A stretch of 50,193 nucleotides of DNA. It comes from Candidatus Thermoplasmatota archaeon (lineage in GTDB: Archaea; Thermoplasmatota; SW-10-69-26; JACQPN01; JAJPHT01). Both the position numbers and the translations under genes were made by a program. The stretch lies in the NCBI GenBank assembly GCA_035540375.1, contig DATLGO010000083.1, positions 1 through 50,193 of the forward strand, read 5' to 3'. Numbering within the stretch: position 1 is the first letter of the stretch; every line of letters starts with the position of its first letter. Of this stretch, positions 4,659 to 40,263 are shown in pieces. The notes under the pieces are model-generated. The model did not search any database, had not been told where the DNA came from, and saw only the letters and a program-made list of their open reading frames with translations.

Positions 4659-5853
4659 GGAGCGCCGCCTCCAGGTCCTCGCCGAGCTTCCAGTCGACGA
4701 TCTCGAATCCTTCGGCGCGGAGACGTTCGAGCGCGCGCGTCCGCGTCGCGAGCAGCTCGGGGCCCGCCTGGAGCGCGCGGAGAGGGGGTTCCGGCGCGAC
4801 GAGCGTCGGATTCGACCCCAGGTCGCGCGCGACCGCGAGGGCGCGCGCGAGGCTCGGATCGGCGACGCCGCTCGTGACGAAGTACACCGGGGAATTCCTT
4901 CGGATCGCTCCGAGATGCGAGCGCACGGCAGCCTCGAGAAGGCCCGCGCCTCCGCTCGCGCAGGCTCCGAGCGCGTCCAGAAGCTCGCCGAGGCGCGGGT
5001 TGGCTGCGAGCGAGGCCCGCCGCGCCTCCTCCTTCACGAGAACGAGCGTGAGGTGATCCTTCGCGCGCTCGTGGTGCGCGAGGATGCCCGCCGCCGCGCG
5101 ACCGCTCCTTGCGCGCGCGGACGTTTCCGCGGGACCGAGGTCCTCCTTCGCGCGAAGGTCGAGGAACACGACGACGCGGGCGTAGCTTTCGCGCGTCACC
5201 TGATTGACGATGGTCTCCCCCGCGCGCGCGGACGCTTTCCAGTTGATGCGCCGCACGCTGTCGCCGGCGCGGTATTCGCGCAGCGCGAAGAACTCCATGC
5301 CGTCGCCGGGTCGGGCGACGCTGTGCGCGCCGAGCGCGGGCTCGGGATTGCGCGCGGACGCGCGGTGGCGGCCGAGCGACGCAGGCACCGGACGCACGCG
5401 GACGTCGATGCGCGGAGCGATCTCGACGCGGCGCTCGAAGAGCCCGAAAACGTCGCGATGGGCGAGCGCATGGGGGCCGAGGTCGCTCGGGCCCCAGACG
5501 CGGGCGCGCCAGCCGAGCGTGAGGGTGGTCGCGCCCTCGCGGAGCCTGAAGGGGATCTCGCTCATCGGCCCCGCGAGCGCGGCCCCGCCGCGCGGGACGA
5601 GGATCGCGCGCGTCGAACGCCGGCCGCGGATCGTGAGCCGCTCCTCGAAGGCCTCCCCCTCGACGAACCGGTCGCGGGGAAGCTCCCGCAGGCCGAGGAG
5701 GGCCGGCGCGCGCAGCGTCGCGGCGGCAAACGCGAAGGCCGCCGCGATCCCGAGGGTCGCGACCGCGAACGACGGGCTGCCCAGGGCGAGGGCCGCGAAG
5801 GCGCTCGCAAGGAGCGCGCCGGCCGCCGCGCGTCCCTTGAGGGTGAGCCTCAT
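4648..5853 (-). CDS. DUF58 domain protein
   Basis: A 401-aa protein with two N-terminal hydrophobic segments (residues about 10-48) followed by a cytoplasmic DUF58 domain. The hallmark REYRAGDSVRRINWKASAR is present around residues 190-210, preceded by GDGMEFFAL; the C-terminal half resembles the von Willebrand A-like fold usual for the family. DUF58 proteins are almost always partners of MoxR ATPases and are thought to take part in assembly or modification of envelope complexes. The open frame extends far upstream, but the ATG at 5853 overlaps the MoxR stop (ATGA) and begins the first plausible membrane segment, so it is the start chosen. Confidence 0.92.
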   Translation of the reverse strand: MRLTLKGRAAAGALLASAFAALALGSPSFAVATLGIAAAFAFAAATLRAPALLGLRELPRDRFVEGEAFEERLTIRGRRSTRAILVPRGGAALAGPMSEIPFRLREGATTLTLGWRARVWGPSDLGPHALAHRDVFGLFERRVEIAPRIDVRVRPVPASLGRHRASARNPEPALGAHSVARPGDGMEFFALREYRAGDSVRRINWKASARAGETIVNQVTRESYARVVVFLDLRAKEDLGPAETSARARSGRAAAGILAHHERAKDHLTLVLVKEEARRASLAANPRLGELLDALGACASGGAGLLEAAVRSHLGAIRRNSPVYFVTSGVADPSLARALAVARDLGSNPTLVAPEPPLRALQAGPELLATRTRALERLRAEGFEIVDWKLGEDLEAALLAR

Positions 5854-6851
5854 GGTTTCACCGTGAACTTGGGAAGGGGCGTCGCTTGGAGGATGTCGGC
5901 CATCACGTCCTTCGCCGCGCGACCCGACAGGCGCGCCTGCGGTCGGAGGATGATGCGGTGCGCGAGCGCGGGGACCGCGAGGGCCCGGACGTCCTCCGGA
6001 ATGACGTAGGTGCGACCCGAGAGCGCCGCCCACGAGCGCGCGAGCTTGAAGACCGCGAGGCTCCCGCGGGGCGACGAGCCCGCGAGGACATCGGGGTGCG
6101 ACCGCGTGCGCGTGATGATGTCCGTGATGTAGTCGTAGACGGGGCCGCTGACATGCACGTGCTCGATGGCCCTCGCGAGACGGTGCAGGATCTCCGAGGA
6201 AGCCACCGGCGTCACCTGGAAGTTGTCCTGGCCTCGTCGCGCGCGGCGCTCGAGGATCTCGCGCTCCTCCTCGCGCGAGGGGTATCCCATGCTGAGCTTC
6301 AGCATGAAGCGGTCGAGCTGGGCCTCGGGCAGGGGGTACGTGCCTTCCTGCTCCACGGGATTCTGCGTCGCGAGGACCATGAACGGCGACGGGAGGCGGT
6401 GCGTAGCCCCCTCGATCGACACCTGCTTCTCGGCCATCGCCTCGAGGAGCGCCGATTGCGTCTTGGGCGAGGCGCGGTTGATCTCGTCCGCGAGCAGGAA
6501 GTTCGTGAAGATGGGGCCTTGCCTCAGCGAGAAGGTTCCCGCGTTCTGGTCGTAGATCGATCCGCCCGTGATGTCGCCCGGCAGGAGGTCCGGCGTGAAC
6601 TGCACCCGCCTGAACTCGCACCCGGAGGCCTGGCTGAGCGCGCTCGCCATGACCGATTTTGCGAGGCCCGGCATGTCCTCGAAAAGGATGTGGCAGCCTT
6701 CCGTCACCATGCCCGCGGCGACGTAACGGAGAACCTCGTGCTTGCCCACGATGACCTGCCGAACCTGCGAGAGGATCGCTTCGACGTTCGCGCGCGCCTC
6801 GAGGACGGCGGCTTCGATCTGCTTGGGCGAGGGGGCTTCTCGTGAAGTCAT
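5850..6851 (-). CDS. MoxR-family AAA ATPase
   Basis: A 333-aa cytoplasmic ATPase. The Walker A loop is the MoxR variant EDMPGLAKS (about residues 54-62). Walker B is LLADEINRAS (about 109-118), sensor 1 lies in VLATQNP (about 152-158) and the arginine-finger region is near LDRFMLKL. The C-terminal lid domain contains the SSPRGSLAVFKLARSWA block typical of MoxR. Length is normal for the family. MoxR proteins act as chaperones with DUF58/VWA partners, and the gene for such a partner lies immediately downstream. Both ends are 4-bp ATGA overlaps with neighbours, which fixes the ATG at 6851 although the frame is open much further upstream. Confidence 0.95.
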   Translation of the reverse strand: MTSREAPSPKQIEAAVLEARANVEAILSQVRQVIVGKHEVLRYVAAGMVTEGCHILFEDMPGLAKSVMASALSQASGCEFRRVQFTPDLLPGDITGGSIYDQNAGTFSLRQGPIFTNFLLADEINRASPKTQSALLEAMAEKQVSIEGATHRLPSPFMVLATQNPVEQEGTYPLPEAQLDRFMLKLSMGYPSREEEREILERRARRGQDNFQVTPVASSEILHRLARAIEHVHVSGPVYDYITDIITRTRSHPDVLAGSSPRGSLAVFKLARSWAALSGRTYVIPEDVRALAVPALAHRIILRPQARLSGRAAKDVMADILQATPLPKFTVKP

Positions 6852-7768
6852 CGAGATCGATCTCCAGGCGGGTCTCTTCCGTTCCTGAGAGGGATGTCCG
6901 CAGGCGTCTCGCGGAGGAGGTCGGCGACGAGCCGGAGGCTCACGTCCTCCCGCGGATCGCGCGCGGGGACGAGCGCGAGGGCGCAGGCGACGAGGACGGC
7001 GGCCCCCGCGGCGAGCATCGCGAGGTCGCGGCCCGCAACATCGGCGACGGCGAGCGCGAAGAGCCCGGCCGCCGCGATCGGCCGCGCCGAAGGGTCCGGG
7101 GAATAGACGAGGCGGGCGTCGCCGGTCGGGGGATCGACGAGCGCTTCGAGCGCTTCCGGCTCGAGGCGACCGGGTCGGCTCGCGGCGACGAAGACGACGC
7201 GCCCCTCGCCGTGACGAGCCGCCACGGCGACCGCGAAGGGCCCGGCGGGCTCGCCGGCGTCGAGCCGCGCGTTGTCGTTGGTGTCGCGGTAGGCGCGGCC
7301 CGTCGCGAGGGCGATCGGGTCGAACCCGGTTTCGCCCGGATCGATGGCGAGGAGCCCGGAGGCCCCGAACGTGATCCCTTTGGAGAGGACGGGCGCCTTC
7401 GCGTCCTCGACGCCGTGGACGATCCCCGCGAGGACCCGCGGCGCCTCGCTTGCGCCGGGCCTTCGCGCGAGCGATGGATCGGAGGAGAGGATCCAGACGT
7501 CCCCTCCCCGCTCGGCGTATGACCAGAGGACCGCGCGTTCGGCGTCGAGGACGATCCTGCGACCGGCCACGACCACGGCGTCCGGATCGCGCGCGGCGTC
7601 GCCGATCCACGCGAGGGGCGATGCGGTCCGGATCACGTCCCATCCCCGCGTCGCGAACGCTTTCTCGGGTCCGTCCTCCGGCGCCGTCGCGAGATCGATC
7701 GCGCTCGCGACGGTCGCGAGCCCGAGGAGAGACGAGAGCGCGAAGGCCGCTATCCGCCACGCCTTCAT
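6848..7768 (-). CDS. DUF4350-like membrane-anchored protein
   Basis: A 306-aa protein with an N-terminal signal or anchor segment (MKAWRIAAFALSSLLGLATV) and a second hydrophobic region near residues 245-285. The outer domain has the pattern of DUF4350 proteins that accompany MoxR/DUF58 genes: a short N-terminal stretch on a 'day of decision' fold, then ERAVLWSYAERGGDVWIL, where a glycine-rich strand follows a helix. A DTNDNARLDAGEPAG segment (about 168-182) looks like a small calcium-binding loop. It overlaps both neighbours by ATGA, so it belongs to the operon. The DUF4350 assignment rests on size, topology and context and is moderate. Confidence 0.8.
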   Translation of the reverse strand: MKAWRIAAFALSSLLGLATVASAIDLATAPEDGPEKAFATRGWDVIRTASPLAWIGDAARDPDAVVVAGRRIVLDAERAVLWSYAERGGDVWILSSDPSLARRPGASEAPRVLAGIVHGVEDAKAPVLSKGITFGASGLLAIDPGETGFDPIALATGRAYRDTNDNARLDAGEPAGPFAVAVAARHGEGRVVFVAASRPGRLEPEALEALVDPPTGDARLVYSPDPSARPIAAAGLFALAVADVAGRDLAMLAAGAAVLVACALALVPARDPREDVSLRLVADLLRETPADIPLRNGRDPPGDRSR

Positions 7769-10700
7769 CGGATGCCTCCCGGAAGACCTCGCGCCAGGAT
7801 ACGGTCGAGCGCGTCGGCGGCGGCGAGGGCGACGCCCGGATCGTGGGCCTCCGCATACACCACGTCGTTGAACGCTCCCGTGAGGATCGCGACGTCGGCG
7901 CGATCCTCCGCGCGGTCGCCCGTCGCGCGCGCGGCCACCTCGGCGAACCCGAGCGTCTCCGCCGCCTCGTCCGTGAGCTTCGCGAGGGCGGCAAGCTCGA
8001 GGTAGACCTCGTAGAGCGCCGCGTAGTCCGGATCGTCGCGGCGCAGCCGCCGGGCCGCGGCCGCGAGGACCGGCGCCGCGGTCGCCCGCGGCCATCGCCG
8101 CCAGGCCGCCGCGATCGCCGCGGCGAGGACGGCGAGCGCGAGCGCCGCGGGCGCGGCGAGGTCGCGCCCGGGAGGCGCGACGCCGCTCGGCACGATCGTC
8201 AGGACGAGGACGTCTCCGCCGGCGGACGCGTTCTCGTGGCGCACGCGATAACGCGCCTCGTCGAGCCGCGAGGCGGGGATCGAGACGACGGCTTCGCCCC
8301 CCGCGTCGGTGGTGAACCGCCAGGGCGAGGAGCCGAGACCCTCGACGAGGAGCGTCGCGTTCGGGACGGGCCGGCCATCCGCCCGCGCGACGATGCGCGC
8401 GAGCATCGGCTCGCCGGCCCGCCCCGGCGTCGTCGAGACGATCGCGAGGCCCACGGGGGCCACGACGTCGATGCTTCCGGCGAAGGCCGGGGCCGACACG
8501 AAGGGCGCTTCGACCTCGACGACGAGCGCGTGGCTTCCGGGCTCCGCGGAGCCGGGCACGTCGAAGGCGAAGGCCGGCCCGGGTCCGCGGTGGACGACGC
8601 GGCCATCGAAGCGGACCGACGCGGCGGCGAAGGCGAGCGGCGCGCCCGACGGATCGACGAGGTCGACGCGGCCGCGGATCGTCCCGCCCGGCGCGACCCA
8701 CCGGGGAACGTCGACCGCGAGGGTGCCGCGCTCGACGACGGCGAGCCGCGTCTCGAGGAGGGCCGCCTCGACGAGGGGACCTTCCTCGACGGCGAGGACC
8801 ACGTCGATGGGGCCGGGAACGCTCGCGACGGCGAGGGGAAGGGAGACGGCGAGGGCGCCGTCGTCGCCCGTCATCGTCCGGAGGTCGCCCCACGCGCCCC
8901 GCACCCGGACGGGGACGCGTGGCAGGGGCTCGCCGGTGGCCGCGACGACGGCGGCCTTCAGCACGGGGTCCCCGCGGACGAGAGAGTCCTCGAGCACGTG
9001 GATGGCGGGAGCGTCGCGCGCAACCAGGGTCCTCGAAGCGTTCACGGAAAGGAACACGCCGTCGATCGAGCCCGCGTAAAGGACGGACACCTCGACCGGA
9101 CCGATCCGCGTCGGATGGAAAGCGCGGCCGAAGCGGCCCTCGTCGTCGGTCACGACGCGCGCCGTCGCCTCGTCGAAGCGGAGAAGCACGGGTTGCCGCG
9201 CGAGGGGCGCATCGTCGCTCCCGACCCGCCCGGTCACGAGGGTCGGGCGGCCGCGCACGACGGAGGTCGCGTCGAGCGCGAGGACCGGCGCGTGCGTGAC
9301 GGTGAGCGTGGTCGCGACGCGGGCGCTTCCTTCGACCGCGTCGTCGAAGGCGAAGGCGAGGACGCGCGCGCCGGGCGGAAAGGCGCCGCCCGGGAAGGAG
9401 AAACGCGCGATTCCCTGGCCGTCGGTCTCCGCCGTCGCGTTGCGCTCGAGGGCGATCGTCCGGCGCGGCATCGGCTTCCCTTCGGCGTCGACGAGGCGGA
9501 CACGGACGGTCACGGCCTCGTCGTCGCGGGCCGCCACGGGGGTCGCCTCGAGCCGCGGATCGCCCGCGACGTGGAGCACCAGCCGCGACGCGGCGGGGCG
9601 CGCGAGGGCGCCGCCCGCGAATCGAGCCTCGAAATCCGAGGCGCCGAGGGGCGCGTCGGCCGGAAGGTCGAGGACGACGCGGAACCGACCCTCGGGCCCC
9701 GTCGTCTCGCGGCCGCGGAAGTCGAGGAATTCCCACGCCACCGTGGCCCCTTCGAGGCTCGAGCCGCCCGCATCCGTGAGACGCCCCGCGATCGCGAAGC
9801 TCGCGCCGGGTCGGGGCGCGAACGGGGGCGGTTCAAGGATGAGCCGCACGGGCGCAAGCGCGGTGACGCGGTGCTCGGCCGCGGTCGCAAGAAGGGCGCC
9901 TTCGCGACCCGCGAAGGAGAACGCGTAGCGGAACGTTCCCGGATCCGACGGCAGCGCGAGGGAGACGTTCGCGGCGCCGTCGGCCCCGGTCACGAGGACG
10001 CCGCCCGGCGCCGCGTCCGCGAGGACGGCCTCGCCCGCGAGGGGCCGGCCGAAGCCGTCCTCGAGGCGCGCGGTCAGGCGGATGCGCGCCCCCGCGTCGG
10101 CGGTCGAAACCCCCTCGACCGTGAGCCGGGCGGGAACGACGAGGGACACGGTCTGACGCGGGGAATCCGCCCCGAGGAATCCCGCGCGCCGCGTGCCGTC
10201 CGGCAGCGCGTGGAGGCCGGCGGCGCGGCCCGACGCGAAGGGGGAGACGTTGTAGACCCAGGCGAAGACCTCGGTCCCGCCTTCGCGGGCGTGCGCGGCG
10301 AGCTGCGCGAGATCGTTGCGGTGGCGACCCGCTCCCGCGTCGTCGGCGAAGACGGCGACGCCGGAGCTTCCCGCGGGGGCGTCGACCTCGGACGCGAGGC
10401 GGGCGCGACCCTCGAAGGCGCCGCGCGCGTCGGTCACGGCCGCGCCGAGCACGTGCTCGCGCCGCCCGGCCGACAGGATCACGGTCGCGTTCGCGACGCT
10501 TTCACCGGAGACCGTCGCGACGGCGCCCGCGAACGGCGCGGTCCCGTCGAGGGCGAGCGCGGGGCCGAGAAGGTCGAGCGTGACCCGGACCTGGGCCCGG
10601 GGCGGCAGCGGACGGGTCCGGTCGGCGGGATCGTCGCCCACCGCTTGCGCGCGCCGCAGCCGCTCGAGCGGGGGGAGGCCGACGTCGCGCGGGTCGCCCG

Positions 10701-13700
10701 CCACGAGGCGGTTTCGCTGGTTGGCGGGCCAGGGATCCTCGCCGTTGCCGTCGTCGAGCCCGTCCTCGTCGCGGTCGCGCGCGAGCTTCTCGCCGGGCGC
10801 GAGGCCCCATCGCCACGGCCCGTGCAGGGCTTCCTCCCACCAGGCCGGGCGACCCGCGGCGTAGGCGGTCCAGGCGCCCGTGGGCGCGGCGGGCGAGAAG
10901 CCGTGAAGCACGGCCCAGCCGTCCGGCACGCCGTCCCCGCCCGTCGAGAGGCGCGTCGGGTCCGCGCCGGTGGAGAGCTCGCCGAGGATGTCGACCGATC
11001 CGTCGGGAAGGGCGTGGACGATGAGGCCACGGGCGGCGAGGTTCGCGACGAGGGACGCGTCGTCGGCGCGTTCGCGCGGGCGAACCGCGCGGCCGAGGAC
11101 CTCGGAGAGGGAGCGGCCGTCGAGGAGGCCGTCGCGGTCGGTGTCGGGGTCGCGGGGGTCGGTCCGGACGCGGGCGCGCCCGGGTCCGGCCGCGAAGCCG
11201 AGAAGCTCCTCGACGTCCGTGAGACCGTCGCCGTCCGTGTCGGTCGAGGAGCGTCGCAGCCGATCGTCGTCGGCGGGGTCGAGAGGATCGAAGCGGACGC
11301 TCGCCTCGTCCGCGTCGGGCGCGCCGCCGCCGTCCGTGTCGGCGGCGAAGGGCGACGTGCCGAGATGATACTCCGCGAGCGTCGGGAGCCCGTCGCTGTC
11401 CGGATCCAGGTCCGCGTCCGGCGCGAGGGGGCTCAACCCGTCGCCCGACAGCCGGCGCCATGCGCTCTCCCACGCATCGGGGAGGCCGTCGCCGTCCGAG
11501 TCGTCGAGGTAGGGATGGGTGCCGTTGGCTTCGGCCGCGCGATACCCGTAGGCGCCCTCGCCCACGACGCGGCGCAGCGCGGGGGCGATCGGCGGGCCGT
11601 CGAAGCGCTCCCACGCGAGCAGCGTCCCGGGGGGCACCGGTTGCACGCGCGTGTAGCGGAACGGCGCGGCGAAGCCGCCGTCGTCGCGGCCGATGCGCGG
11701 GATCGGGCGGTCCGCGGGAAGCGTCAGGGGTCCGGGCGCGCCCGGGTAGACGACGCCGAGGTCCTCCGCGGGGAGACCGAGATACACCGTTCCCCAGAAG
11801 ATCTTCCAACCGTCGGCAAGCCCGTCGGGGCTCGACGAGCGCCGGTTGGGATCGGAGCCCGCCTCGTACTCGGCGAGGTTCGTCGCGCGGAACGTCTGCG
11901 CGCGCGCGACGCGACGTCCGTCCATCTCGACGATCGTGGTCCAGACGGCCACGTCGTGGTCGAGGTCCCGCTCCGCGTCGGACAAGCCGTCGTGGAAGCT
12001 GCTCCAGAGCGAAGGATCCAGGTTCCAACCGCCGAGCGCGTCGTCGTAAATGCCGAAGCGGATCTCCCACGCGTCCGGCAACCCGTCCATGTCGGTGTCG
12101 TTGCGCGCGGGATCCGTCGCGGGCCGCTTGCGATCCGATGCGAAGGGGCTTTCGCGATACGACGTCGGGTCGACCTCCCATCCGTCGGCGAGCCCGTCGT
12201 CGTCCGCGTCCCGGTCGAGGAGGTTCGGCCGCCCGTCGCCGTCCAGGTCGCCCGCGGGGCCGAGGGCGGCGAGGCCGTCGCTTCCGAAGAGATCGAGGCC
12301 GCGGGGTCGCGGATCCGGCCCCCATTCGTAGAGCCGGCCGAGACGGTAGACGTCCACGCGACGCATCCAGTAGTCCGCTTCGACGCCGTCGTCGAGACCG
12401 TCCTCGTCGCTGTCCGGGACGGTCGGATCGAGCGCGGGCAGGACGAGGCCGCGCCACGGCCGGGCGCCCACCTCCTCGCCATCGAGCAGGCCGTCGCCGT
12501 CCGTGTCGGGTCGCGCGGGGTCCGTGCGGGGGAAGACGCGCGATCCGAGACGGCCCGCGAACTCGACCGCGTCGTCGAGCCCGTCGGCGTCGGTGTCGCG
12601 CCGCGTCGGGTCCGATCGCACGCGGCGGGCGTCCGAACCGTGGCCCACCTTCCATCCGACGATTTCGGCGAGGTCCGTGAGGCCGTCGCCGTCGGTGTCG
12701 TTCGAGCGGGGATCCGAGCCGCCCCACCACGGCCCGACGCTCGACTCGTTCCACCCGAGCGGCCGCCCGGCGGCATACTCGTCGAGCAGCGTGAGCGCGA
12801 CCGCCGATCCGTCGACGGGGTCCACGCCGCGCTCCGTGACGAACGCGCCGAGGTTTTCCGCGAGCGGGTCGAAGCCGTGGGCGACGAGCCACCCGTCGGG
12901 CACGCTCGCGCCGCCGGAGGCGGCGCGGCGCGGATCGAGTCCCCCGCCCGCGAGGACGACGTCGCCGTAAAGCCGCCGCGACGCCTCGAATTCCTGGAGG
13001 TTCGTGAGGCCGTCGAGATCGGTGTCCTCGAAGGCGACCGCGGCGTCGAAGAGATCGAAGCCGTGCGCCGCGAGCCACCCGTCCGCGAGACCCGACCCGG
13101 AGGTCGAGAACGCGCGCGGGTCCGTCCCGAGCGCGATCTCGAGAAGGTCGTCGAGGCCGTCGGCGTCCCCGTCCGCGCGTCGCGGGTCGAGTCCGCGCGT
13201 CCAGGCTTCGCCGACCGTCCACGGGACCTCGCCCGCGCGCCGGTCGATCACCGTCGGGTCGAGGGGATCGAACCCGTGGGCGATGAGCCAGGCGTAGGGC
13301 ACGCCGCGGCCGTCGACGTCCCACCGCGTGGGATCGAGGCCGGACCACCACGGCCCGTCCTCGGTCTCGTCGTGACCGGCCGGCCGCCCGTGCGCATACA
13401 CCTCGCCCAGGCTCATGCGCCACGCGACTGGAAGGCCTCCGGGCCCGTAGACCGCGGGGCTTTCCGGGGGCCGCGGGTAGGGCGCGACCCGCTCGGCGAG
13501 GCCGGGGTCGCCCGGGTCGAGCCCGAAGCGCTCGATCCAGGCGTCGGGAAGCCGCTCCGGGGCCGAGGGGCGGAAGGGGTCGCGCCCGAGGACCGCGTTC
13601 TCGACGACGTCCGGCACGCGGTCGCCGTCCGCGTCGGGGACGCTCGCGGCCCGCAGCTCCCACGCGGCCGCGGGCCACGCCCAGGCCGCCGCGGAGGCGA

Positions 13701-13860
13701 TGACGAGGCCCGCGGCCACGACCGGGAGGCTTCGTCGGAGCGCGCGCCGGCGTCGCGCGAGCGCCGCGAGCGCGCGGCGGGCGGCGGGCGGGGCATCGAC
13801 GCTGCGCCTCACGGGGCCGTTAGTGCGGATTTCGCGCCAAAAGCCTTTCGCGGGATTCAT
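7765..13860 (-). CDS. Giant surface protein: DxDxDG repeats, Ig-like modules, DUF4129-like cytoplasmic tail
   Basis: A 2031-aa first gene of the MoxR/DUF58 operon. An N-terminal hydrophobic segment lies at about residues 44-67. Residues about 70-1050 hold roughly 15 thrombospondin-type-3-like calcium loops (DTDGDGLTDLAE type) interleaved with a second repeat of the form DGWLVAHGFDPL. Residues about 1060-1890 are tandem Ig/carboxypeptidase-regulatory-like beta modules (repeated 'TDDEGRF', 'TTDAGGEA' turns). A membrane segment at about 1898-1920 follows, then a tail of about 110 residues with DYAALYEVYLELAAL and an all-helical pattern resembling DUF4129, the domain that normally closes MoxR/DUF58 operons. 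The ATG at 13860 is 23 nt from a TATA-like TAAAAT (13883-13878); an in-frame GTG at 13812 is an alternative. No transglutaminase domain is seen. Confidence 0.85.
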   Translation of the reverse strand: MNPAKGFWREIRTNGPVRRSVDAPPAARRALAALARRRRALRRSLPVVAAGLVIASAAAWAWPAAAWELRAASVPDADGDRVPDVVENAVLGRDPFRPSAPERLPDAWIERFGLDPGDPGLAERVAPYPRPPESPAVYGPGGLPVAWRMSLGEVYAHGRPAGHDETEDGPWWSGLDPTRWDVDGRGVPYAWLIAHGFDPLDPTVIDRRAGEVPWTVGEAWTRGLDPRRADGDADGLDDLLEIALGTDPRAFSTSGSGLADGWLAAHGFDLFDAAVAFEDTDLDGLTNLQEFEASRRLYGDVVLAGGGLDPRRAASGGASVPDGWLVAHGFDPLAENLGAFVTERGVDPVDGSAVALTLLDEYAAGRPLGWNESSVGPWWGGSDPRSNDTDGDGLTDLAEIVGWKVGHGSDARRVRSDPTRRDTDADGLDDAVEFAGRLGSRVFPRTDPARPDTDGDGLLDGEEVGARPWRGLVLPALDPTVPDSDEDGLDDGVEADYWMRRVDVYRLGRLYEWGPDPRPRGLDLFGSDGLAALGPAGDLDGDGRPNLLDRDADDDGLADGWEVDPTSYRESPFASDRKRPATDPARNDTDMDGLPDAWEIRFGIYDDALGGWNLDPSLWSSFHDGLSDAERDLDHDVAVWTTIVEMDGRRVARAQTFRATNLAEYEAGSDPNRRSSSPDGLADGWKIFWGTVYLGLPAEDLGVVYPGAPGPLTLPADRPIPRIGRDDGGFAAPFRYTRVQPVPPGTLLAWERFDGPPIAPALRRVVGEGAYGYRAAEANGTHPYLDDSDGDGLPDAWESAWRRLSGDGLSPLAPDADLDPDSDGLPTLAEYHLGTSPFAADTDGGGAPDADEASVRFDPLDPADDDRLRRSSTDTDGDGLTDVEELLGFAAGPGRARVRTDPRDPDTDRDGLLDGRSLSEVLGRAVRPRERADDASLVANLAARGLIVHALPDGSVDILGELSTGADPTRLSTGGDGVPDGWAVLHGFSPAAPTGAWTAYAAGRPAWWEEALHGPWRWGLAPGEKLARDRDEDGLDDGNGEDPWPANQRNRLVAGDPRDVGLPPLERLRRAQAVGDDPADRTRPLPPRAQVRVTLDLLGPALALDGTAPFAGAVATVSGESVANATVILSAGRREHVLGAAVTDARGAFEGRARLASEVDAPAGSSGVAVFADDAGAGRHRNDLAQLAAHAREGGTEVFAWVYNVSPFASGRAAGLHALPDGTRRAGFLGADSPRQTVSLVVPARLTVEGVSTADAGARIRLTARLEDGFGRPLAGEAVLADAAPGGVLVTGADGAANVSLALPSDPGTFRYAFSFAGREGALLATAAEHRVTALAPVRLILEPPPFAPRPGASFAIAGRLTDAGGSSLEGATVAWEFLDFRGRETTGPEGRFRVVLDLPADAPLGASDFEARFAGGALARPAASRLVLHVAGDPRLEATPVAARDDEAVTVRVRLVDAEGKPMPRRTIALERNATAETDGQGIARFSFPGGAFPPGARVLAFAFDDAVEGSARVATTLTVTHAPVLALDATSVVRGRPTLVTGRVGSDDAPLARQPVLLRFDEATARVVTDDEGRFGRAFHPTRIGPVEVSVLYAGSIDGVFLSVNASRTLVARDAPAIHVLEDSLVRGDPVLKAAVVAATGEPLPRVPVRVRGAWGDLRTMTGDDGALAVSLPLAVASVPGPIDVVLAVEEGPLVEAALLETRLAVVERGTLAVDVPRWVAPGGTIRGRVDLVDPSGAPLAFAAASVRFDGRVVHRGPGPAFAFDVPGSAEPGSHALVVEVEAPFVSAPAFAGSIDVVAPVGLAIVSTTPGRAGEPMLARIVARADGRPVPNATLLVEGLGSSPWRFTTDAGGEAVVSIPASRLDEARYRVRHENASAGGDVLVLTIVPSGVAPPGRDLAAPAALALAVLAAAIAAAWRRWPRATAAPVLAAAARRLRRDDPDYAALYEVYLELAALAKLTDEAAETLGFAEVAARATGDRAEDRADVAILTGAFNDVVYAEAHDPGVALAAADALDRILARGLPGGIR
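10730..13650 (-). repeat. Thrombospondin-3-like DxDxDGxxD coding repeats
   Basis: About fifteen copies of a calcium-loop motif (D-T-D-x-D-G-L-x-D-x-x-E) are encoded here, inside the 2031-aa surface protein. They alternate with about six copies of a DGWxxxHGFDPL motif. Known TSP3-type loops bind Ca2+ and stiffen extracellular stalks. Boundaries are approximate. Confidence 0.8.
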
Positions 13861-13879
13861 ACGTGGAACCGGCCGCAAT

Positions 13880-13898
13880 TTTACATGATTCCTCCAAT
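13880..13898 (+). promoter_or_regulatory. Shared 19-bp surface-gene element, copy 1 (distal tandem copy)
   Basis: Reads TTTACA-TGATT-CCTCCAAT. It has the same 5-bp spacer as the other copies and one mismatch in the left half. It lies 42 bp (about four helical turns) upstream of copy 2 and overlaps, in opposite orientation, the TATA-like TAAAAT of the divergent minus-strand operon. Confidence 0.6.
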
Positions 13899-13921
13899 TC
13901 TTGGGCGCGCCACGGACGGGT

Positions 13922-13940
13922 TTCACACTGTTTCTCCAAC
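13922..13940 (+). promoter_or_regulatory. Shared 19-bp surface-gene element, copy 2
   Basis: Reads TTCACA-CTGTT-TCTCCAAC. It ends 5 bp before a TATA-like GATAAC (13946-13951), which in turn begins 29 nt before the ATG at 13975. This is the position expected of a BRE or an activator site for a leaderless gene. The distance from element end to ATG (35 nt) is identical to that of the copy at 16515. Confidence 0.7.
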
Positions 13941-13945
13941 ACCGC

Positions 13946-13951
13946 GATAAC
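13946..13951 (+). promoter_or_regulatory. TATA-like box of the beta-helix protein gene
   Basis: GATAAC begins 29 nt before the ATG at 13975. This matches the spacing of the other leaderless promoters in the window (28-30 nt). Confidence 0.5.
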
Positions 13952-13974
13952 CGCGCGGGACGTTCACGGACCCC

Positions 13975-15438
13975 ATGCGCCGCGCCGCTTCGACCGCGCT
14001 CCTCGTCCTCGCCTTCCTGCTCGCCCCGCCCTCGGCCGCGGCCTCGGAATCGCAGGTGTGGGACGAGGACCGCATCGTCCGCGACGACGTCGTCGTTCCC
14101 GCGGGAACGACGCTCGTCGTGCGCGGCGCGAGCGTCACGCTCGCGAACGCGGCGCTCCGCATCGAGCCCGGCGGGGCGCTCCGCCTCGAATCGCTCCCGG
14201 GGCGATCCGCGAAGATCACGGGCGAGGGCGACGGAAGCTTCGTGGTCGCCTACGGCCCGACGACCCTCGCGGGACGCCCCGACGCGCCGGCCATCGTCGA
14301 AGGGTTGGGAGGCCTCGCGAGCGTGACCTCCGGAAGCTTCGCCTTCACGCGCGGCTTCGCCGTCTCCTCGGCGCCCTTCGAGGCCGACCACGCGGTCTTC
14401 CGCAACTACACGTCGGGCCTTCTGCTGCAGGTCGCCGACGCGACGCTGCGCAACGTGACCTTCGAGAGCGGGCGCGGGCTCGGCCTCGTCACCGCGGGCT
14501 CGCACGTGTTCGTCGATGGGCTGCGCCTCGTCGGGCCGGGCGCCTCGGCCGTCATCACCGGGAGCGCGAAACCCGCGACGCTCGCGAACGTCTCCGCCTT
14601 CGCCGTGCGCGAGGCGCTCCGCGTCTCGAAAGCGCAGGTCGAGGCGCAAAACGTCGAGGTCGAGATCGCGGAACGCTGCGTGTTCGTCGAGGGCGCCTCG
14701 ACGCTCGCGCTCCGCGCGGCGCGGTGCGTCGACTTCACGCAGGCCGCCCTCGAGGCCGTGCCGGCGGTCAAGGGCGTGCCGCGCGTCGACGTCGCGGGGC
14801 TCGTCGCATCCTCGCGCTCGCACGGGGCGAGCTGGATCGTTCGGACGCAGCACGGCGCCCTCCGCCTCGCGGATGCCGCGCTCGGACCCGGCGCGAAGGT
14901 CGGGGTCTACGGGGACGCCGTCGTGCCCGCGATCTCGAACGTCACGTTCAGGGGCCTCGGCGAATGGAACGTCCGCCTCGACGCGCCGCCCGACGTCGTC
15001 GACCCGTCCGCGGCCGCGCTCGGCGAGACCGCGGGCCTCGGTCGCCTCGTCGCGACGGCCCTCGCGACCGTCCGCATCGAGGCGCCCGCCGCCCTCGGCA
15101 TCGACGAGGCGATCGTCCACGTCCTCGACGCGGGAAACCGCACGCCGGTGCGCGCGCCGATCCGCTCCGCCGCCGCGAGCGTGACCTTTCCCGTCGTGAC
15201 CGACCGCGTCGACGCCGCGGGCCTTTACGTGCGACCCGCGTACGTCGTGCGCGTCGAAGCGTCCGGCCTCGCGGGCGAAGCTGCGCTCGACCGCGAGGGA
15301 CGCGCCGTGGTCGAGCTCGCGCCTGCGGCTTCGCCCGCGAGCCTCCCCGGCCCCGGCGCGCTCGCCCTCGTCGCGGTGCTCGCCGCCCTCGCCGGGTGGC
15401 GTCGCGCACGTTCAAGCTCGCTTCGCGCAACCGCGTGA
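13975..15438 (+). CDS. Secreted beta-helix-like protein with Pro-Gly-Pro C-terminal anchor
   Basis: A 487-aa protein with a signal peptide (MRRAASTALLVLAFLLAPP, cleavage near AAAS-ES at about 24). A long region follows with short repeated strands rich in 'ADATLRNVTFESGRG' and 'GSHVFVDGLRLVG' type segments. This pattern is typical of a right-handed parallel beta-helix, as in surface-associated or polysaccharide-related archaeal proteins. The C-terminus is LPGPGALALVAVLAALAG followed by WRRAR, a layout like PGF-CTERM archaeosortase substrates but with PGP. No catalytic residues can be assigned. It starts leaderlessly behind elements 13880/13922. The next promoter element begins two bases after its stop codon. 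Confidence 0.88.
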   Translation: MRRAASTALLVLAFLLAPPSAAASESQVWDEDRIVRDDVVVPAGTTLVVRGASVTLANAALRIEPGGALRLESLPGRSAKITGEGDGSFVVAYGPTTLAGRPDAPAIVEGLGGLASVTSGSFAFTRGFAVSSAPFEADHAVFRNYTSGLLLQVADATLRNVTFESGRGLGLVTAGSHVFVDGLRLVGPGASAVITGSAKPATLANVSAFAVREALRVSKAQVEAQNVEVEIAERCVFVEGASTLALRAARCVDFTQAALEAVPAVKGVPRVDVAGLVASSRSHGASWIVRTQHGALRLADAALGPGAKVGVYGDAVVPAISNVTFRGLGEWNVRLDAPPDVVDPSAAALGETAGLGRLVATALATVRIEAPAALGIDEAIVHVLDAGNRTPVRAPIRSAAASVTFPVVTDRVDAAGLYVRPAYVVRVEASGLAGEAALDREGRAVVELAPAASPASLPGPGALALVAVLAALAGWRRARSSSLRATA

Positions 15439-15439
15439 A

Positions 15440-15458
15440 TTCACAACGCTCCTCCACA
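15440..15458 (+). promoter_or_regulatory. Shared 19-bp surface-gene element, copy 3
   Basis: Reads TTCACA-ACGCT-CCTCCACA, starting two bases after the stop of the preceding gene. The ATG it serves is further away (15534) than in other copies, leaving a leader of about 40 nt with a Shine-Dalgarno AGGAG at 15518-15522. No good TATA box follows. Confidence 0.6.
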
Positions 15459-15533: not shown

Positions 15534-16433
15534 ATGAACAGGAAGATGGTCGTGGCTGCCTTCGCGGCGGCCATGGTGAGCATGTACGCGGCACCCCTCG
15601 TGGCGGCCCACCCGGGCCCGACGCAGGCCAACCCGTATGAGCCGAGCACGTTCCACGGCATCGGATGCAACGTCGGGGTCGGTCAGGCGACGCACGAGTG
15701 GTCGGCCGTTTCCGGCTTCAGCGTGCACATCGAGTTCAGCTCCGGCGACTCGGCCACGAGCGGCGGCGGCATCACCATCGTCGACGACAGCTGCATGTAC
15801 TTCGCGCAGACGCCCGTTCCGACGGACCCGACCGGCACGAGCGCGGGCGACAACGACTACGAATGGGGCTTCTCGGGAGGCCACGTCCCCGCCTGGCACA
15901 ACCACGGCGGCGCGAACGAGTACCCGTGCGTCTCGGTCACCTCGACGCCCGCGACCGACGTCGTCTTCAGCGTCGGCTCGGACCGCGACGGCGTGAACGG
16001 CGTCACGCCCGACACCACGCCTCCCGGCGCGAGCCCCGACGTCATCGACGGGTCCTACGCGACAACGGGCGGCACGGGCTGCAGCGACGGCACGCGCCGC
16101 AGCGACGGCAACACCGGCTCGATCATGACGGGCGGCGACGGCCCGGGCTGCAACGACGGCATGGGCGCGGGCGCGAACGGCTGCGTCACGTTCTTCGACG
16201 CGACGGGCGCCTCCTACGACGCGATCGAGGGCGCCTGGGTCTTCATCGACTTCGGCCCGATCGTCGCGTACGACAACGTCGCGCTCTTCGAGTGCCGCGG
16301 CAACGAGCACGGGGTCTTCACGTCCCCGCCCGCGGGGACGCCTCCGAACCCCGGCCGCTGCGTCGACTGGATCAACGGCTTCTTCGGCTCGGGCATGAGC
16401 GTCCCGACCTGGGGCCACATCTTCACGCAGTAG
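15534..16433 (+). CDS. Secreted Cys- and Gly-rich protein
   Basis: A 299-aa exported protein with signal peptide MNRKMVVAAFAAAMVSMYA ending near LVAAH (residue about 25). The mature part is rich in Gly, Asp, Thr and Cys (for example IGCNVGV, DDSCMYF, DGPGCNDG, ANGCVTFF, LFECRG, RCVDWI). This suggests a disulfide-stabilised beta fold exposed outside the cell. There is no membrane anchor, so it may be released or bound to other surface proteins. AGGAG lies 11 nt upstream of the ATG, and a strong hairpin/T-run terminator follows, making this a separate transcript. No family recognised. Confidence 0.87.
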   Translation: MNRKMVVAAFAAAMVSMYAAPLVAAHPGPTQANPYEPSTFHGIGCNVGVGQATHEWSAVSGFSVHIEFSSGDSATSGGGITIVDDSCMYFAQTPVPTDPTGTSAGDNDYEWGFSGGHVPAWHNHGGANEYPCVSVTSTPATDVVFSVGSDRDGVNGVTPDTTPPGASPDVIDGSYATTGGTGCSDGTRRSDGNTGSIMTGGDGPGCNDGMGAGANGCVTFFDATGASYDAIEGAWVFIDFGPIVAYDNVALFECRGNEHGVFTSPPAGTPPNPGRCVDWINGFFGSGMSVPTWGHIFTQ

Positions 16434-16514: not shown

Positions 16515-16533
16515 TTCACAAACGTCCTCCAAT
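16515..16533 (+). promoter_or_regulatory. Shared 19-bp surface-gene element, copy 4 (consensus)
   Basis: Reads TTCACA-AACGT-CCTCCAAT. It ends 35 nt before the ATG at 16568, exactly as copy 2 does before 13975. No clear TATA sequence is visible at the expected place (about 16539), so the element may be the main promoter determinant here. Confidence 0.7.
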
Positions 16534-16567: not shown

Positions 16568-19500
16568 ATGCGGAGGCTCGCCCGATCGCCCGACGGGTCC
16601 GTCCGACGCAGCGCGCTCCTCGTCCTCGTCCTGCTCCTTGCGCCCTCCGTGGTCGCTCACCACGAAACGCCGAACACGGCGGGCGACGGCCTCCCCAAGA
16701 CCCCGGATCCCGTGCGCGACGCGGAGAACGCCCTCGCGAACCTCTCCACCACCCCGACGCTCGACCACGCGCGCGACCAATTGCTCGCGATCGAGCGCGC
16801 CGCCTTCGAGACCGCCCGCGAGGAGGCGCGGGCGCGCAACGTCAGCGCCGAGGTGCTTCCCTCAGGCCTCGCGCCCGTGTTCCGCGACGCGTTCGACGCC
16901 GGCCATCGCGTGGGCGGCCTCGGGGACTGGCGCGTCCTCGCGGGGGCCTGGCGCGTGGACGGGGCGGTGGGGCTCGACGGTTCGGCGGCCTACACCATGA
17001 CGAACGCCACCCACGGCCGCTACGCCTCGGGCGAGAGCCTCCTCGTCTCGCCCGCGATCGATCTTTCCGCCTATCCGGCGCAGGCGGGCGCCGTTCCCTA
17101 CGCGGCGAACCACGTGAGCCGCCAGGTGCTGCTCCTCTTCCGCCAGGCGTACACCTTGATGAACCTCGTCGACGGCGGGCAGGTCTACCTGTTCCTGCGG
17201 GACCCCGAGGCGCCGGGCGCGCGCCGGATCCTCCTCGAGCCGATGGCCGGCTTCGGCGCCTACGCGGACGGCGTCTCCGCGCTCGGCGGGCGCGGCTTCA
17301 CGGGCCACCGCGACTGGCACCAGGTCGGCTTCGACCTCACGCCGTTCTCGGGGCGCACCCTCTGGCTCGGCTTCCGCCTCGTCGCCTCGCCGAAGGCCGA
17401 CGCGACGCCGCCCCCCGACTGGCCGTCCCAATTCGAGGGGGCCGCGCCGTACGGATGGCGCCTCGACGACCTCGAGGTCGTGACGCCGGCGTGGGGTCTC
17501 AACCTCAAGGTCGTGGACGTCACGGGCCCGTCGTTCCGCCTCGACGAGAAGGATCCGCTCGTGCGGATCCCGCCCGGCGAGAACGCGACCGTCCGCGCCG
17601 AGATCCTTCACGCCGCGGCATCGGCGCGCGAAGCGGTCGCGCGGCTCACCGTGGACGGACTCGGGAAGCCCACGGTCGCGACGGCCCGCGCCTTCCTCCG
17701 GCCGGGCGAGGTCTGGCGCCCCGCGGTCACGTTTCTCGCTCCGGACACGCCCGGCGCCCGCGTGACGGTCACGGCGGAAGCGTGGTATCCCGGCCTCGAC
17801 GGCGGTCCCGCGCCTGGCGATCCGACGCCCGACAACGCGGACAGCCGCACGTTCCTCGTGTCGCGCGTGCAGCGCGCCGACGTGCGCGTGACGCCCTCCT
17901 CGTCCATGGTGGACGACGGCGGGACGGTCCACGCGACGGTCCGGGTGACGAACACGGGCAACAGCGACCTGCGGGCGATCCTCGACGTCCGGGAGCACCT
18001 TCCGTCCGGCGTCGGGACGCCTGCGGGCTCCGGCGGCACGGCCGAGCTGGGCGCCCTCGACGTGGACCTCGCGCCGGGCGCCGCGCGGTCGTTCGTGCTG
18101 GCGGCGCGCCCGGTCGCGCGCGGGGAGCACGCGATCGTCGCGCGCCTCGTCGACGCAGGCGTTCTCGTCGCGAACGCGACCGCGCGCTATTATGTGCACG
18201 CCTCGCCCCCGCCGGCGTTCTTCGACCCGGGCGACGCCGCGCGACCGTGGCGGTGGACGGCGGAGCGGGCCACGGCCGTGCCGGTCCTGGATGACTGGAT
18301 GTGGGTGAGCCGCCATTCGGGGGCGGCCGTCCCCAACACGCTGATCGCGCGGGCCACGCCGGACGCGACGGCAGAGGGCGACGGCGTCCGCTTCAAGGAC
18401 CTGAAGCTCACGGCGCGGTACTTCCCCCTCGAGATGGTCTCGATGGTCGTCGAGATCAGCCGCCCCAACCCCGTCGGCTTCGGGGCCTCGACGGACGCCG
18501 CGCGTTCCGTCGTCTGGCGCCACGAGGTGGACGTGGCGGGATCCCCCGAGATCAAGGAGCAGCGCCTCGCGTGGCAGGACCTCGCGGTCTACGTCGATCC
18601 GCTCGAGACGGAGGGGTATCTCGACACCTGGTCGGCGCGCGGGCTCGAAGTGGCCGTCCGCGCGGCGCATGGCGCGACGGCGGGAAACGCGACGGGCCTT
18701 TTCCTCGACGACCTTCGTCTCTCGGGCGTCCCCGTCGGCGGCGATCCCGCGGATCGGCTCGACATCGTCCGGATCACCGGCAACGAGACGTACATCCGCG
18801 GGGCGCCTCCGACCGACGTCGGCCCCGTCTTTCCGAGCGCCTGCGCCTGGGAGCGCGAAACCTTTCTCGAGATCCTCGTGAAGCAGCACTGCTGGCGCCG
18901 GGTGAGCGCGGCGGACGCGCGCGCGGCGCTTTCCGCCCCCGATTGGAGCCGCCTCGCCGGCCCCGTGCCCGCCCGTCTCGGCCGCTCCGACGCGATCGCC
19001 GTCATGGACACGACGGCGTCGAACGATCCGTCGCGCCTGCTCTCGCAGCCCATCCGCCTCGAGGCCGCGACCTCGCCCGTCCTGACGTTCGACCACGCGT
19101 ACGCTTTCACGAGCGCCCCGCTCGACACCCCCGGCCTCGTGAACAGCTTCAGGATCGGCAAGGTCGGCTTCGTGGAGGTCCAATGGCTCCTGCCGGACGG
19201 CACGTGGTCTCCCTTCCATCGGCTCGAGCCCGTCGGAGGCTACCCGCACCCCCTCGAGAAGAACGACGCCGGCCAGACCCGCACGAAGGGCGCGGTCACC
19301 TCGTGGACGCCCTATTTCGGCTTCTACCATCCAGGGGCCTGCGACATGGACGTCTTCGCGGGCTGCGACGGGGGCGGTTACTACAAGAACGTCGACGCGT
19401 CCGGCCAGCTCCGTTGGCGGGAGTACCCTCCCACGCCCAAGCGGGAGACCTCGACGTTCTTCCTCGATCCCTCGCGGCTCGGCGGCAAGAACCTGTCCGA

Positions 19501-22500
19501 CGCCGTGATCCGCATCGCCTTCCACGCATCGAGCTCCCAGGGCGCCGGCGGTTCGTCGAAATCGGTCTGGACGATCGACAACGTCCGGCTGAACCCGGTC
19601 CGCGCCTTCGCGTCCGACGGCAGCCTCGAAGGCCTCGCGCTCGCGATCCCCTACGACTGGCGGACGCTCGGGGTCGGTCCCGGAACGCGCGCGCCCATCA
19701 ACGCGACCGTACGAAACGTCGGCCTCTACCCCGAGGACTTCGCCGTCGCGCTGAACGTTTCGCGCCTCAACGGAAACGGCACGGAGCGGACGTTCCCCGT
19801 CGGGCGGCTGCTGCCGAACGAGACGCGCTCGATCCTCCTCGAGTGGGACGTCCCCGACCTCGACGAGACGATCGCCTACGAGATCCGCGCGCGCGTGTTC
19901 GTCGCGGGCACCGGCGCAAGCGACGAGAACTTCTTCAACGACGAACGGTCGATCGGATCCGCGGGCGAGCTCGTGGCGCGTCGGCGCGTCGACGCGGCGG
20001 TCGAGGCGCGGGTCTTCCCGTCCGAGGGTCGCGAGGATCTCGCGCGCCATCTCCCGATCACCCTGGTGAACCGCGGCAACGTGCCGCTCGACGACCTCAT
20101 CGTTCGACGCACGCTGGAGCGCGCCGTCCAGGGCGGTTCGATCGTCGTCTCCGACCGGACGTGGATCGTGCGGGGCGCGCTCGACCCGGACCCCGCGGGC
20201 GTTCCCCTCCGCCGGCTCGCGACGGATCCCCCGCTCACCGCCGCGGACGAGTACCTCACGCCCGGCGCCTCGGGTCTCTACCGCCTGCGCGTCGAGGTGA
20301 CGCTTGCGCCCGGGCTTCGCGACGAGCGGCCCGACGACAACGAGCAGACCGCGAAGCTCGTGGCGAGGGCCGCGCTCGCGTTCGAGGATTTCGACCGGGG
20401 CTTCGCATGGCGCACCCCCGCGCCCGACGTCTGGGACCGGGGCGAGGGATTCCGCAGCGCTTCCGGGCTCGAAGCCTCGAACCGCTCGAGCGGGCTCCTG
20501 CGGCCGATGACCGACGCGTGGGTCGAGACGCCAATGCTGCCGCTCTCGCGCGCGCAGGACGCCGTCGTGAACCTCTTCACGCGCCACGACCTCGAACGCG
20601 GCTACGACGGGGGGCTCCTCGAGATCTCGACGGACGGATCGACCTGGTTCCCCGTTCCCCCGACGTCGGCCGACGATTCGAGCGTCGGCTACGCCTCGCA
20701 TCTCGTGGGCTCGAACCCGCTTGCGGCCGGCATCGACCCTTCGGACGAGGCGCGGGCCCTCACAGGATCGAGCTTCGACGATCCGCGGAACCTGGACGGT
20801 TGGATTCCGCTTTCGTTCGACCTCGCGAACGTGCCGGGCCTTTCCGAGAACGTGGAATTCCTCCGGGTCGCGCCGCCCGCGGGCCCCCCGGGGCCGATCG
20901 AGCGCATCGGACGCGGCGCCTATGCGTGGCCCGCGCTCACGACGTCCCCGTCCGATCCCTCCGCGCGATGGGAACTGCACAATCTGACCGAGGATCTGCG
21001 GGCCGTCGAAGGGACCTTCTGGTGGAGCGGCTTCGCGACGACGGGCTCCGTGGAAAGCGTCCGTAGCCTGGAACGGAATTTCAACGTCTCGACGGCCGGC
21101 CCGGACGAGGTCGTCACGTTGTCCTGGCGCGACGCGCGTTCGGGGACGCAAGGATCGGATTGGAGAGGCATCGGCGGTTCGTACGAGTTCGCGTTGCTCC
21201 AGCGCGACGCGCAAGGCATCCTTCGCCCGTTGAGCACGCACGCCGACCTCGAAGCCGCGGACATCGGGAACGGGTGGAGCCTCGTCTCGATCCCCGTGGA
21301 GGCGGTGGACAAGAACCGTGATTTCACCGCGCGCTGGACCTTCCGATCGAAGTCGGTGAGCGTCGCGAACCTCGGCTGGGCCATCGAGAACGTGACCCTG
21401 GCCGCATCCCGCGTCGAAAACGGCCGCTGGGTCGTCTCGAGCGTGTTCTCGCCCGCCGACGAGGAGGTCTCGGGGTGGACGGCGAACGGGTGGACCCGCG
21501 TCGAGGCGATCCCGTCGCGACCCGCCCCCTGGGCGCTCGTGGCCGGCGCGGGTCCCGAAGGAATGCCCCAATCCATATGGCGCTTCAACTTCGCGCCCAA
21601 TGCGGACGCGCGCCTCGTCTCGCCCGCGATCGACCTCGCCGGCGTCGGCGGGACGAGCGCCACGCTCGAGCTCGTGCATCGCCGGTCGATGCATGTGAAG
21701 GACGACACGTCGACCGCGATCACGTCCGGGACGGATTGGCGCTTCGACCGCCACTATCAGGCCGGCGTCGTGGAGGTGTCGGCGTTCAACACGACGAGCG
21801 GCCGATGGGATCCCTATCGTCAAGTGTTCGGGAAGCCCGCCGGACCCTCCCAGGAACCGCGAAGTCGAGCCGTCGACGCCGGGAACGGGGCGCCGTATTC
21901 GCACCCGATCTCGGACGCCGGCGACCCGTTCCCTCGATTTACCCGCGAATTCTTGCAGAAATTCAAGGTCGCGGGGCTGTCGACGACGTACAACCGCCTC
22001 TTGAGCGTCCCGACGTCGTATGCCTTCTCGGGCCAAACGGCCGGGTCGGGTTTCGAGCGCAGCGTCTTCGATCTCTCCGCGTTCATGGGCAAGCAGGTCC
22101 GCATCGCCTTCCACGCATGGTCGACGCCGACGACGGCGAGCGGCTCGTGGTCCATCGCGCGGGCCGAGATCGCGGGTCGCGTGTTGAGCGCCCCCGACGC
22201 GACGCTGCGCTTCCGGCTCGGCACCGACGCGAGCGTCCTTCCCGGGTCGTGGTCGATCGACCAGTTCGAGGTCTCGGCCCGCCTCTACGGCCGCAGCGTC
22301 GGCGTCCACCTCGACCCCATCCGGGTTCCCGTCTCCTCGGAGCCCTTCGTCGTGTCCGGCCACCTGCGCAACTACGGGGCCGAGGCGAGACCGTTCCTCG
22401 GCGTGGGCCTCGCCGATCGGACCGCGAAACCGATCGCGCTCGCGACGGTGCGCGAAGGCGGCGTCGTCGCGGCCCCGGGCTATCTCGCGGCCGCGGGCCC

Positions 22501-40244: not shown

Positions 40245-40263
40245 ATTGGAGGCACGCTGTGAA
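40245..40263 (-). promoter_or_regulatory. Shared 19-bp surface-gene element, copy 6 (consensus), minus strand
   Basis: On the minus strand it reads TTCACA-GCGTG-CCTCCAAT. Four bases later comes TTATCG (40240-40235), a TATA-like hexamer predicting a transcript start near 40211, ten bases before the ATG of the 2961-aa protein. It is the only copy on this strand and keeps the same orientation relative to its gene. Confidence 0.72.

Follow-up and report, generated by a model that had tools for sequence, protein, structure and literature searches.

A conserved bipartite promoter element of a probable secreted-protein regulon in a Thermoplasmatota archaeon

The window analyzed here is the whole 50,193-bp stretch of contig DATLGO010000083.1 from a Thermoplasmatota archaeon. 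A minus-strand assembly operon and a plus-strand series of genes for secreted proteins diverge from a spacer (13813-13974), which separates the minus-strand gene starting at GTG 13812 from the plus-strand gene starting at ATG 13975. Two 18-bp boxes lie in this spacer, and further copies are found elsewhere in the cluster. The features are listed below.

4648-5853, minus strand: DUF58 protein of the assembly operon (PF01882)
5850-6851, minus strand: MoxR-type AAA ATPase of the assembly operon (PF07726)
7765-13812, minus strand: 2015-aa membrane protein with Big_1 and CarboxypepD_reg domains, first gene of the assembly operon
13836-13851, minus strand: core promoter of the minus-strand operon, GCGAAAGGCTTTTGGC, at -39 to -24 of GTG 13812; its score, 12.8, is the highest in the spacer for this strand
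13878-13883, minus strand: TAAAAT, at -66 to -71 of GTG 13812, partly inside the distal copy
13880-13897, plus strand: distal copy, TTTACATGATTCCTCCAA, at -95 to -78 of ATG 13975 and, reversed, at -68 to -85 of GTG 13812
13922-13939, plus strand: proximal copy, TTCACACTGTTTCTCCAA, at -53 to -36 of ATG 13975, ending at the BRE
13936-13951, plus strand: weak core promoter of the 13975 gene, CCAACACCGCGATAAC, at -39 to -24; score 4.75 (99% of background, 3.5)
13975-15438, plus strand: secreted 487-aa surface protein (P0001) with a signal-peptide-like N-terminus and a hydrophobic C-terminus
15440-15457, plus strand: copy with one mismatch, TTCACAACGCTCCTCCAC, 76 bp ahead of ATG 15534
15534-16433, plus strand: secreted 299-aa protein
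16515-16532, plus strand: copy, TTCACAAACGTCCTCCAA, at -53 to -36 of ATG 16568
16568-25897, plus strand: giant 3109-aa secreted surface protein with a hydrophobic C-terminus
25675-29682, plus strand: ORF of a second large secreted protein, whose true start lies downstream of 25675; no element of its own
29607-29624, plus strand: copy, TTCACACATGCCCTCCAA, overlapping the end of the preceding ORF, 54 bp ahead of GTG 29679
29679-30323, plus strand: secreted 214-aa protein
30506-31102, plus strand: secreted 198-aa protein, no copy of its own
31316-40201, minus strand: giant 2961-aa secreted surface protein
40246-40263, minus strand: copy, TTCACAGCGTGCCTCCAA, 44 bp ahead of ATG 40201

Gene calls and start codons are those of our own codon-based caller and of author assignment; the caller's minus-strand ORF 7765-15120 was replaced by hand with 7765-13812, and 13975-15438 was added by hand. 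Outside the spacer, the copies at 15440, 16515, 29607 and 40246 each lie 35-76 bp ahead of a signal-peptide gene. The ORF at 25675-29682 probably belongs to the transcription unit of the 16568 gene, and the 30506 gene probably shares a unit with the 29679 gene. Since the secreted genes that lack a copy directly trail others in the same direction, each surface unit, as delimited by gene order, starts with a copy. A predicted archaeal secretion system combining a MoxR-type ATPase with S-layer-like proteins is described in the available part of PMC5898192. The cluster is flanked by two minus-strand proteins (43448-44659 and 37-1320) whose N-termini are alike (EQVVEGHNVYTVMQAV and EQVIEGHNVFTVVQAM, respectively).

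The consensus of the element is TTYACA-N5-YCTCCAA, which is 18 bp long, bipartite, asymmetric and non-palindromic. A pattern search confirmed the initial annotation in that the copies at 13880 and 13922 are present on the same strand, 42 bp apart from start to start, and TTYACAYNNTTYCTCCAA fits both exactly. With up to three mismatches, TTYACAYNNTTYCTCCAA has seven matches in the window, compared with 0.07 expected from shuffles. The pattern TTCACANNNNNYCTCCAA occurs five times in the 3,131,388-bp genome, four of them in the window, and its reversed-pattern control does not occur. Eight exact copies of TTYACANNNNNYCTCCAA, the TTYACA form, are present in the same genome (3.13 Mb), of which five are in the window and three on contig C50. 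The chance of at least five of the eight exact copies falling in this 50 kb is 6×10−8, and that of a second same-strand exact copy less than 100 bp away is 2.6×10−4. When one mismatch is allowed, the genome contains 12 copies, compared with one for the control. The two boxes in the spacer are copies of one real, repeated cis-element and not a product of chance.

A matrix scan of the window yielded six sites at 22-32 bits, and the next-best match scored 11.8 bits. Because the matrix was trained on these window sites, their own high scores follow by construction, and the information resides in the gap beneath them. Among 350,633 bp of other stretches of the same genome, no site reached 22 bits (best, 21.7). 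The 42-bp spacing was found once in the matrix scan; the other spacings between same-strand neighbors were 56, 110, 131 and 156 bp, with three of these four pairs including a weak partner of 17-18 bits and an overlapping 9.8-bit match at 11 bp set aside. A recent tandem duplication was considered as the origin of the pair at 13880 and 13922 and is ruled out, since the two 42-bp units are identical at 6 of 24 positions outside the 18-bp box (hand count).

The genomes compared are denoted G000 (the window's own genome), G001 (same family), G002 (same order) and G003-G006 (order and class). An exact-pattern search of 60 genomes, G000 included, returned a match in seven. G001, the only genome among those searched that is listed in the same family, had six matches compared with none for the control; five others, all of the phylum, had one match each, and the control matched in three genomes, once each. 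With at most one mismatch, there are 30 copies in G001 (control, 0) and five in G002 (control, 4), the latter amounting to no genome-wide enrichment. A scan of genome contigs pointed to two loci, the G001 locus (L152, JAJPHT010000028.1) and L153, a distant locus with a different gene context and no divergent pair. The record JAJPHT010000028.1 is titled Proteobacteria bacterium, yet it has archaeal-type leaderless promoters and is listed in the same family as the window's genome; the title is probably wrong. Promoters of this leaderless BRE/TATA type mark G000 and G001 alike as archaeal, presumably Thermoplasmatota.

In G001, the ortholog of the 13975 gene, with 27% identity, and the assembly-gene ortholog, of 2040 aa, point away from each other, and one element lies between them, at -38 to -55 of the former. 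In G002, 259,001 bp outside the training set were scanned, the first two stretches before the rest were fetched as background. The four best matrix scores (22.0, 21.1, 18.1 and 15.5 bits; the fifth was 14.6) all fall in the syntenic cluster on its contig C23. Three of them are found about 90-105 bp ahead of the starts called for a giant protein of 3133 aa and for secreted proteins of 346 and 205 aa, and another, with the diverged sequence TTCAAAAAAAAGCTCCAA, adjoins the 2075-aa assembly gene. These genes are the counterparts of the window genes carrying copies, the small and giant ones being assigned by position and N-terminal resemblance rather than by a tree. Counterpart promoters in two related genera thus retain the element, in G002 as diverged copies. 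The assembly-gene homologs of G003-G006 lie in one-way clusters, and no element of at least 13 bits was found in the stretches fetched around these homologs of the 2015-aa gene. A paralogous assembly operon on contig C27 of G001 is also a one-way cluster, with no element of at least 13 bits in the 18 kb fetched.

The targets were characterized at 40 sites with at most one mismatch, namely 10 of the 12 in G000 and all 30 in G001; the two G000 sites left aside (C47:10724 and C48:59534) were dropped after their contexts had been inspected. A site was assigned a target if a same-strand gene start had been called 20-200 bp downstream of it, and signal peptides were assigned by a simple hydrophobicity rule. 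Such a start was found at 26 of the 40 sites, and 23 of the 26 products have signal-peptide-like N-termini. For G000, this holds in 7 of 7 rows (six genes, with rows 13880 and 13922 counting one shared gene), compared with 66 of 178 unit-leading genes (P = 0.0012, Fisher's exact test); the proportion is 7/8 if C48:59534 is included, which lies 40 bp ahead of a gene without a signal-peptide-like N-terminus, and C47:10724 has no called downstream gene. For G001, the proportions are 16 of 19 compared with 78 of 201 (P = 1.4×10−4, Fisher's exact test), and the three exceptions include a giant gene with a probably miscalled start and a TPR-family protein whose N-terminus, as called, is short. No start was called 20-200 bp downstream at the remaining 14 sites, including all three exact copies on C50; two of the 30 G001 sites fall inside called genes, and one C50 copy overlaps a low-scoring small ORF. 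We conclude that the box is a conserved element at the promoters of an archaeal secreted-protein regulon. Two identical weaker boxes, TTCACAAGAATCGTCGAA, were also observed 1.3 kb apart on contig C98 of G000 (7864 and 9168 of L077); they resemble G001 variants and may represent further regulon members.

Among unit-leading genes of both G000 and G001, AT content peaks at -34/-33 (BRE) and at -30 to -25 (TATA) from the start codon, and by these distances many of the genes are leaderless. Core promoters were scored with a 16-bp matrix (consensus CCAAAACCTTTATGAC). Among plus-strand windows of the spacer, the core promoter CCAACACCGCGATAAC of the 13975 gene ranks only fourth and was picked for its leaderless register; better windows at -138 (11.4) and -101 (5.6) are both out of that register. 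The -138 window (CCAAAAGCCTTTCGCG, 13837-13852) is the core promoter of the minus-strand operon read backwards, and that promoter may fire in both directions. With a core promoter at -39 of ATG 13975, the proximal copy ends at the BRE, and its final four bases are overlapped by CCAACACCGCGATAAC. The box at 16515 occupies the identical position relative to ATG 16568. Core-promoter scores are 7.97 for the 16568 gene, 9.93 for the 40201 gene and 4.75 for the 13975 gene; the strong divergent promoter, at 12.8, has no abutting box. Judged by score, only a minority of the 40 sites have the box directly upstream of a BRE/TATA, and next to many copies no TATA is detectable.

The initial annotation had taken TAAAAT as the TATA-like sequence of the MoxR/DUF58 operon and proposed that one factor could activate the surface cluster while blocking or tuning the assembly operon. 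The partial overlap of the distal copy with TAAAAT is real. TAAAAT itself is not among the good core-promoter matches, and it was rejected as the minus-strand TATA given the core promoter at 13836-13851. The distal copy therefore cannot block the operon by overlap. The other part of the proposal fares better: the proximal copy occupies the position typical of an archaeal activator site, and a link of the element to both divergent units is plausible. An element in the same orientation is found upstream of the assembly operon in three genomes, at -68 to -85 in G000, -63 to -80 in G001 and -68 to -85 in G002, with the G001 position counted from GTG 5245, which we chose over the called 5305 for the longer basic N-terminus it shares with G000 and G002. 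On this sequence comparison, the distal copy plausibly serves the divergent operon. The distances from element to minus-strand TATA are about 40, 36 and 28 bp in G000, G001 and G002 (hand count), and being unequal they indicate no fixed face-of-helix relation. In our reading, each promoter has its own copy, and the shorter spacer of G001 lets a single element fill both positions.

The spacing had also been given weight, as 42 bp corresponds to four helical turns at 10.5 bp per turn. The arithmetic is correct, and conservation of the spacing in relatives is contradicted by the single copy in G001 and by the 56-156 bp between other neighbors, so that it was rejected as a conserved rule, an outcome that the initial annotation had itself named as a refutation; the four-turn argument possibly holds, at most, for this one promoter. 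Under such an argument, the distal copy would be a second cooperative site for the 13975 gene on one face of the DNA, unrelated to the minus-strand operon. This would account for two co-oriented copies exactly 42 bp apart, and four EarA sites lie upstream of one BRE in the system described in the available part of PMC5512572. However, G001 makes do with one copy, the spacings elsewhere vary, and the G002 element stays by the assembly operon with the 13975 homolog 2.8 kb away, a distance at which it can hardly serve that homolog. We regard the cooperative arrangement as rather doubtful.

It appears fairly probable to us that both copies are putative sites of one regulator, an activator and likely a tandem winged-helix protein, whose regulon comprises secreted and surface proteins, with the distal copy serving the operon. 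One sequence-specific regulator would bind both copies and coordinate the secreted and surface proteins. Bound to the box, probably a binding site for a cell-surface gene activator, it would help TBP/TFB onto the weak 13975 core promoter, as we infer from EarA, Ptr2 and TFB-RF1. The distal copy, about 40 bp upstream of the TATA of the MoxR/DUF58 operon, would most likely belong to that operon, with a modulating or co-activating role and not a blocking one. Together, the boxes would tie surface proteins and assembly machinery to one signal. The regulator would most likely be a tandem winged-helix protein of the kind encoded on C50, which is the weakest step of the proposal.

The box could instead be a repressor operator, where a protein bound against the BRE silences the surface genes until it is released by a signal. 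The box does abut the BRE, and two G001 copies are reversed and situated 0-12 bp from the start codons of small winged-helix-like proteins; at the leaderless 13975 and 16568 genes, however, it lies upstream of the BRE/TATA and not over them, and many adjacent core promoters are weak, the usual setting for an activator (available parts of PMC5512572 and PMC5937170). A repressor operator seems unlikely. Yet another explanation is that the element is itself a specialized core promoter, in which a dedicated TFB/TBP pair uses TTCACA or CTCCAA as the TATA, without any further regulator. Parts of the element do look like a degenerate core promoter: when the core-promoter matrix is run over the element itself, offsets -8, -6 and 5 average above every offset outside it, and the nearest called downstream start is never less than 34 bp away. 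These observations are set against a separate TATA-half fixed 4 nt past the end of the element at 12 of 40 sites (2 expected; the highest of 42 offsets tried, followed by offset 18 with 8 of 40), against the leaderless register, which puts the TATA of the 13975 and 16568 genes at -30 to -25 and outside the element, and against the two constrained 6-bp blocks, which span 18 bp and exceed a BRE/TATA; we consider a specialized core promoter quite improbable. A chance match or a coding or repeat artefact has a negligible probability, for although two-copy families frequently arise by chance in a 50-kb window, it is contradicted by the counts, the shuffles, the reversed-pattern controls, the G002 positions and genome counts far above controls in G000 and G001.

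As a site for an activator, the box would work, by analogy, like known archaeal activator sites adjoining the BRE. Ptr2 of Methanocaldococcus jannaschii is an Lrp-type protein. It has multiple sites upstream of the BRE, a position like that of the box, and stimulates by recruiting TBP, as stated in the available part of PMC5512572. The same text describes EarA as the activator of the archaellum (fla) operon of Methanococcus maripaludis, with four 6-bp sites just upstream of the BRE/TATA. The resemblance is in several copies of a short site directly upstream of the BRE/TATA at a surface-structure promoter; unlike the four 6-bp sites of EarA at one operon, the element here is an 18-bp bipartite box distributed over many secreted-protein genes. 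TFB-RF1 of Thermococcales recognizes a 13-nt palindrome, TCTGAANTTCAGA, at two operons, and in the available part of PMC5937170 the site is at a conserved distance upstream of a weak BRE, with the regulon kept across relatives. The box TTYACA-N5-YCTCCAA is similar in its position upstream of the BRE and in its retention across relatives, and differs from the TFB-RF1 site in being asymmetric, not a palindrome like TCTGAANTTCAGA, and in having more targets.

On contig C50, four copies surround a gene for a tandem winged-helix protein (L034 6251-6781; C50 26253-26780) and two TPR proteins, the latter consisting of an outer domain, one TM segment and a cytoplasmic TPR. In G001, the two best matches of this winged-helix protein are on C19 (3072-3566), next to the 13975 ortholog, and on C11, with elements on either side; in G002, the top match is on C23 at 87249, about 8 kb past the gene corresponding to 16568. 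Among solved structures, none matched the C50 protein below E 0.1. Tandem winged-helix proteins form a large paralogous family, present in 7 of 7 genomes searched. In G001, 5 of 28 tandem winged-helix genes lie within 3 kb of an element, compared with 1.33 expected (P = 0.009), the query having been picked for lying beside elements; P is 0.066 at 5 kb. Since the proximity is significant at 3 kb and not at 5 kb, the link is only suggestive, and the tandem winged-helix protein encoded beside TPR membrane proteins is suggested as the best candidate regulator. Full-length members of the TPR family occur in multiple copies in G000 and G001, and the eight other genomes searched gave only partial matches or none (G003), a distribution that parallels the strong form of the element. 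The neighborhood of a tandem winged-helix protein and a TPR membrane protein at L034 6251-11426 (C50 of G000) recurs in G001 at L028 880-3584, L032 6500-8990 and L031 12280-14731, and the two are possibly an undescribed archaeal signaling pair.

The reversed G001 copies lie at L031 9473-9490 and L032 9264-9281, directly before (0-12 bp) the start codons of genes for small winged-helix-like proteins of 67-90 aa, an arrangement that looks like autorepression. One such protein, P0006, has six matches in G001, and at the start codons of two of these lies a reversed element. It has only two weak matches in G000 and is for that reason ranked below the tandem winged-helix proteins as a candidate regulator. 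A decidedly tentative extension pairs a TPR membrane sensor, which has a large outer domain, with a tandem winged-helix protein in one signaling module. Through the box, this module might control the secretome of an archaeal family; its two winged helices would each recognize a different half, TTCACA or CTCCAA, which are 12 bp apart, and feedback boxes would stand at the module's own genes. In the window, the doubled box would let one such protein set the surface proteins and the MoxR/DUF58 operon together.

To our knowledge, few archaeal regulons are known outside cultured lineages. No description of the element was found in the literature searched, which comprised titles and abstract openings among the matches listed and few subscription journals. 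With these results, an uncultivated lineage gains a defined box, candidate regulators, a promoter geometry that lends itself to testing, and a list of targets in which secreted proteins and giant surface proteins abound. They also open the question of how archaea coordinate surface proteins with their assembly machinery.
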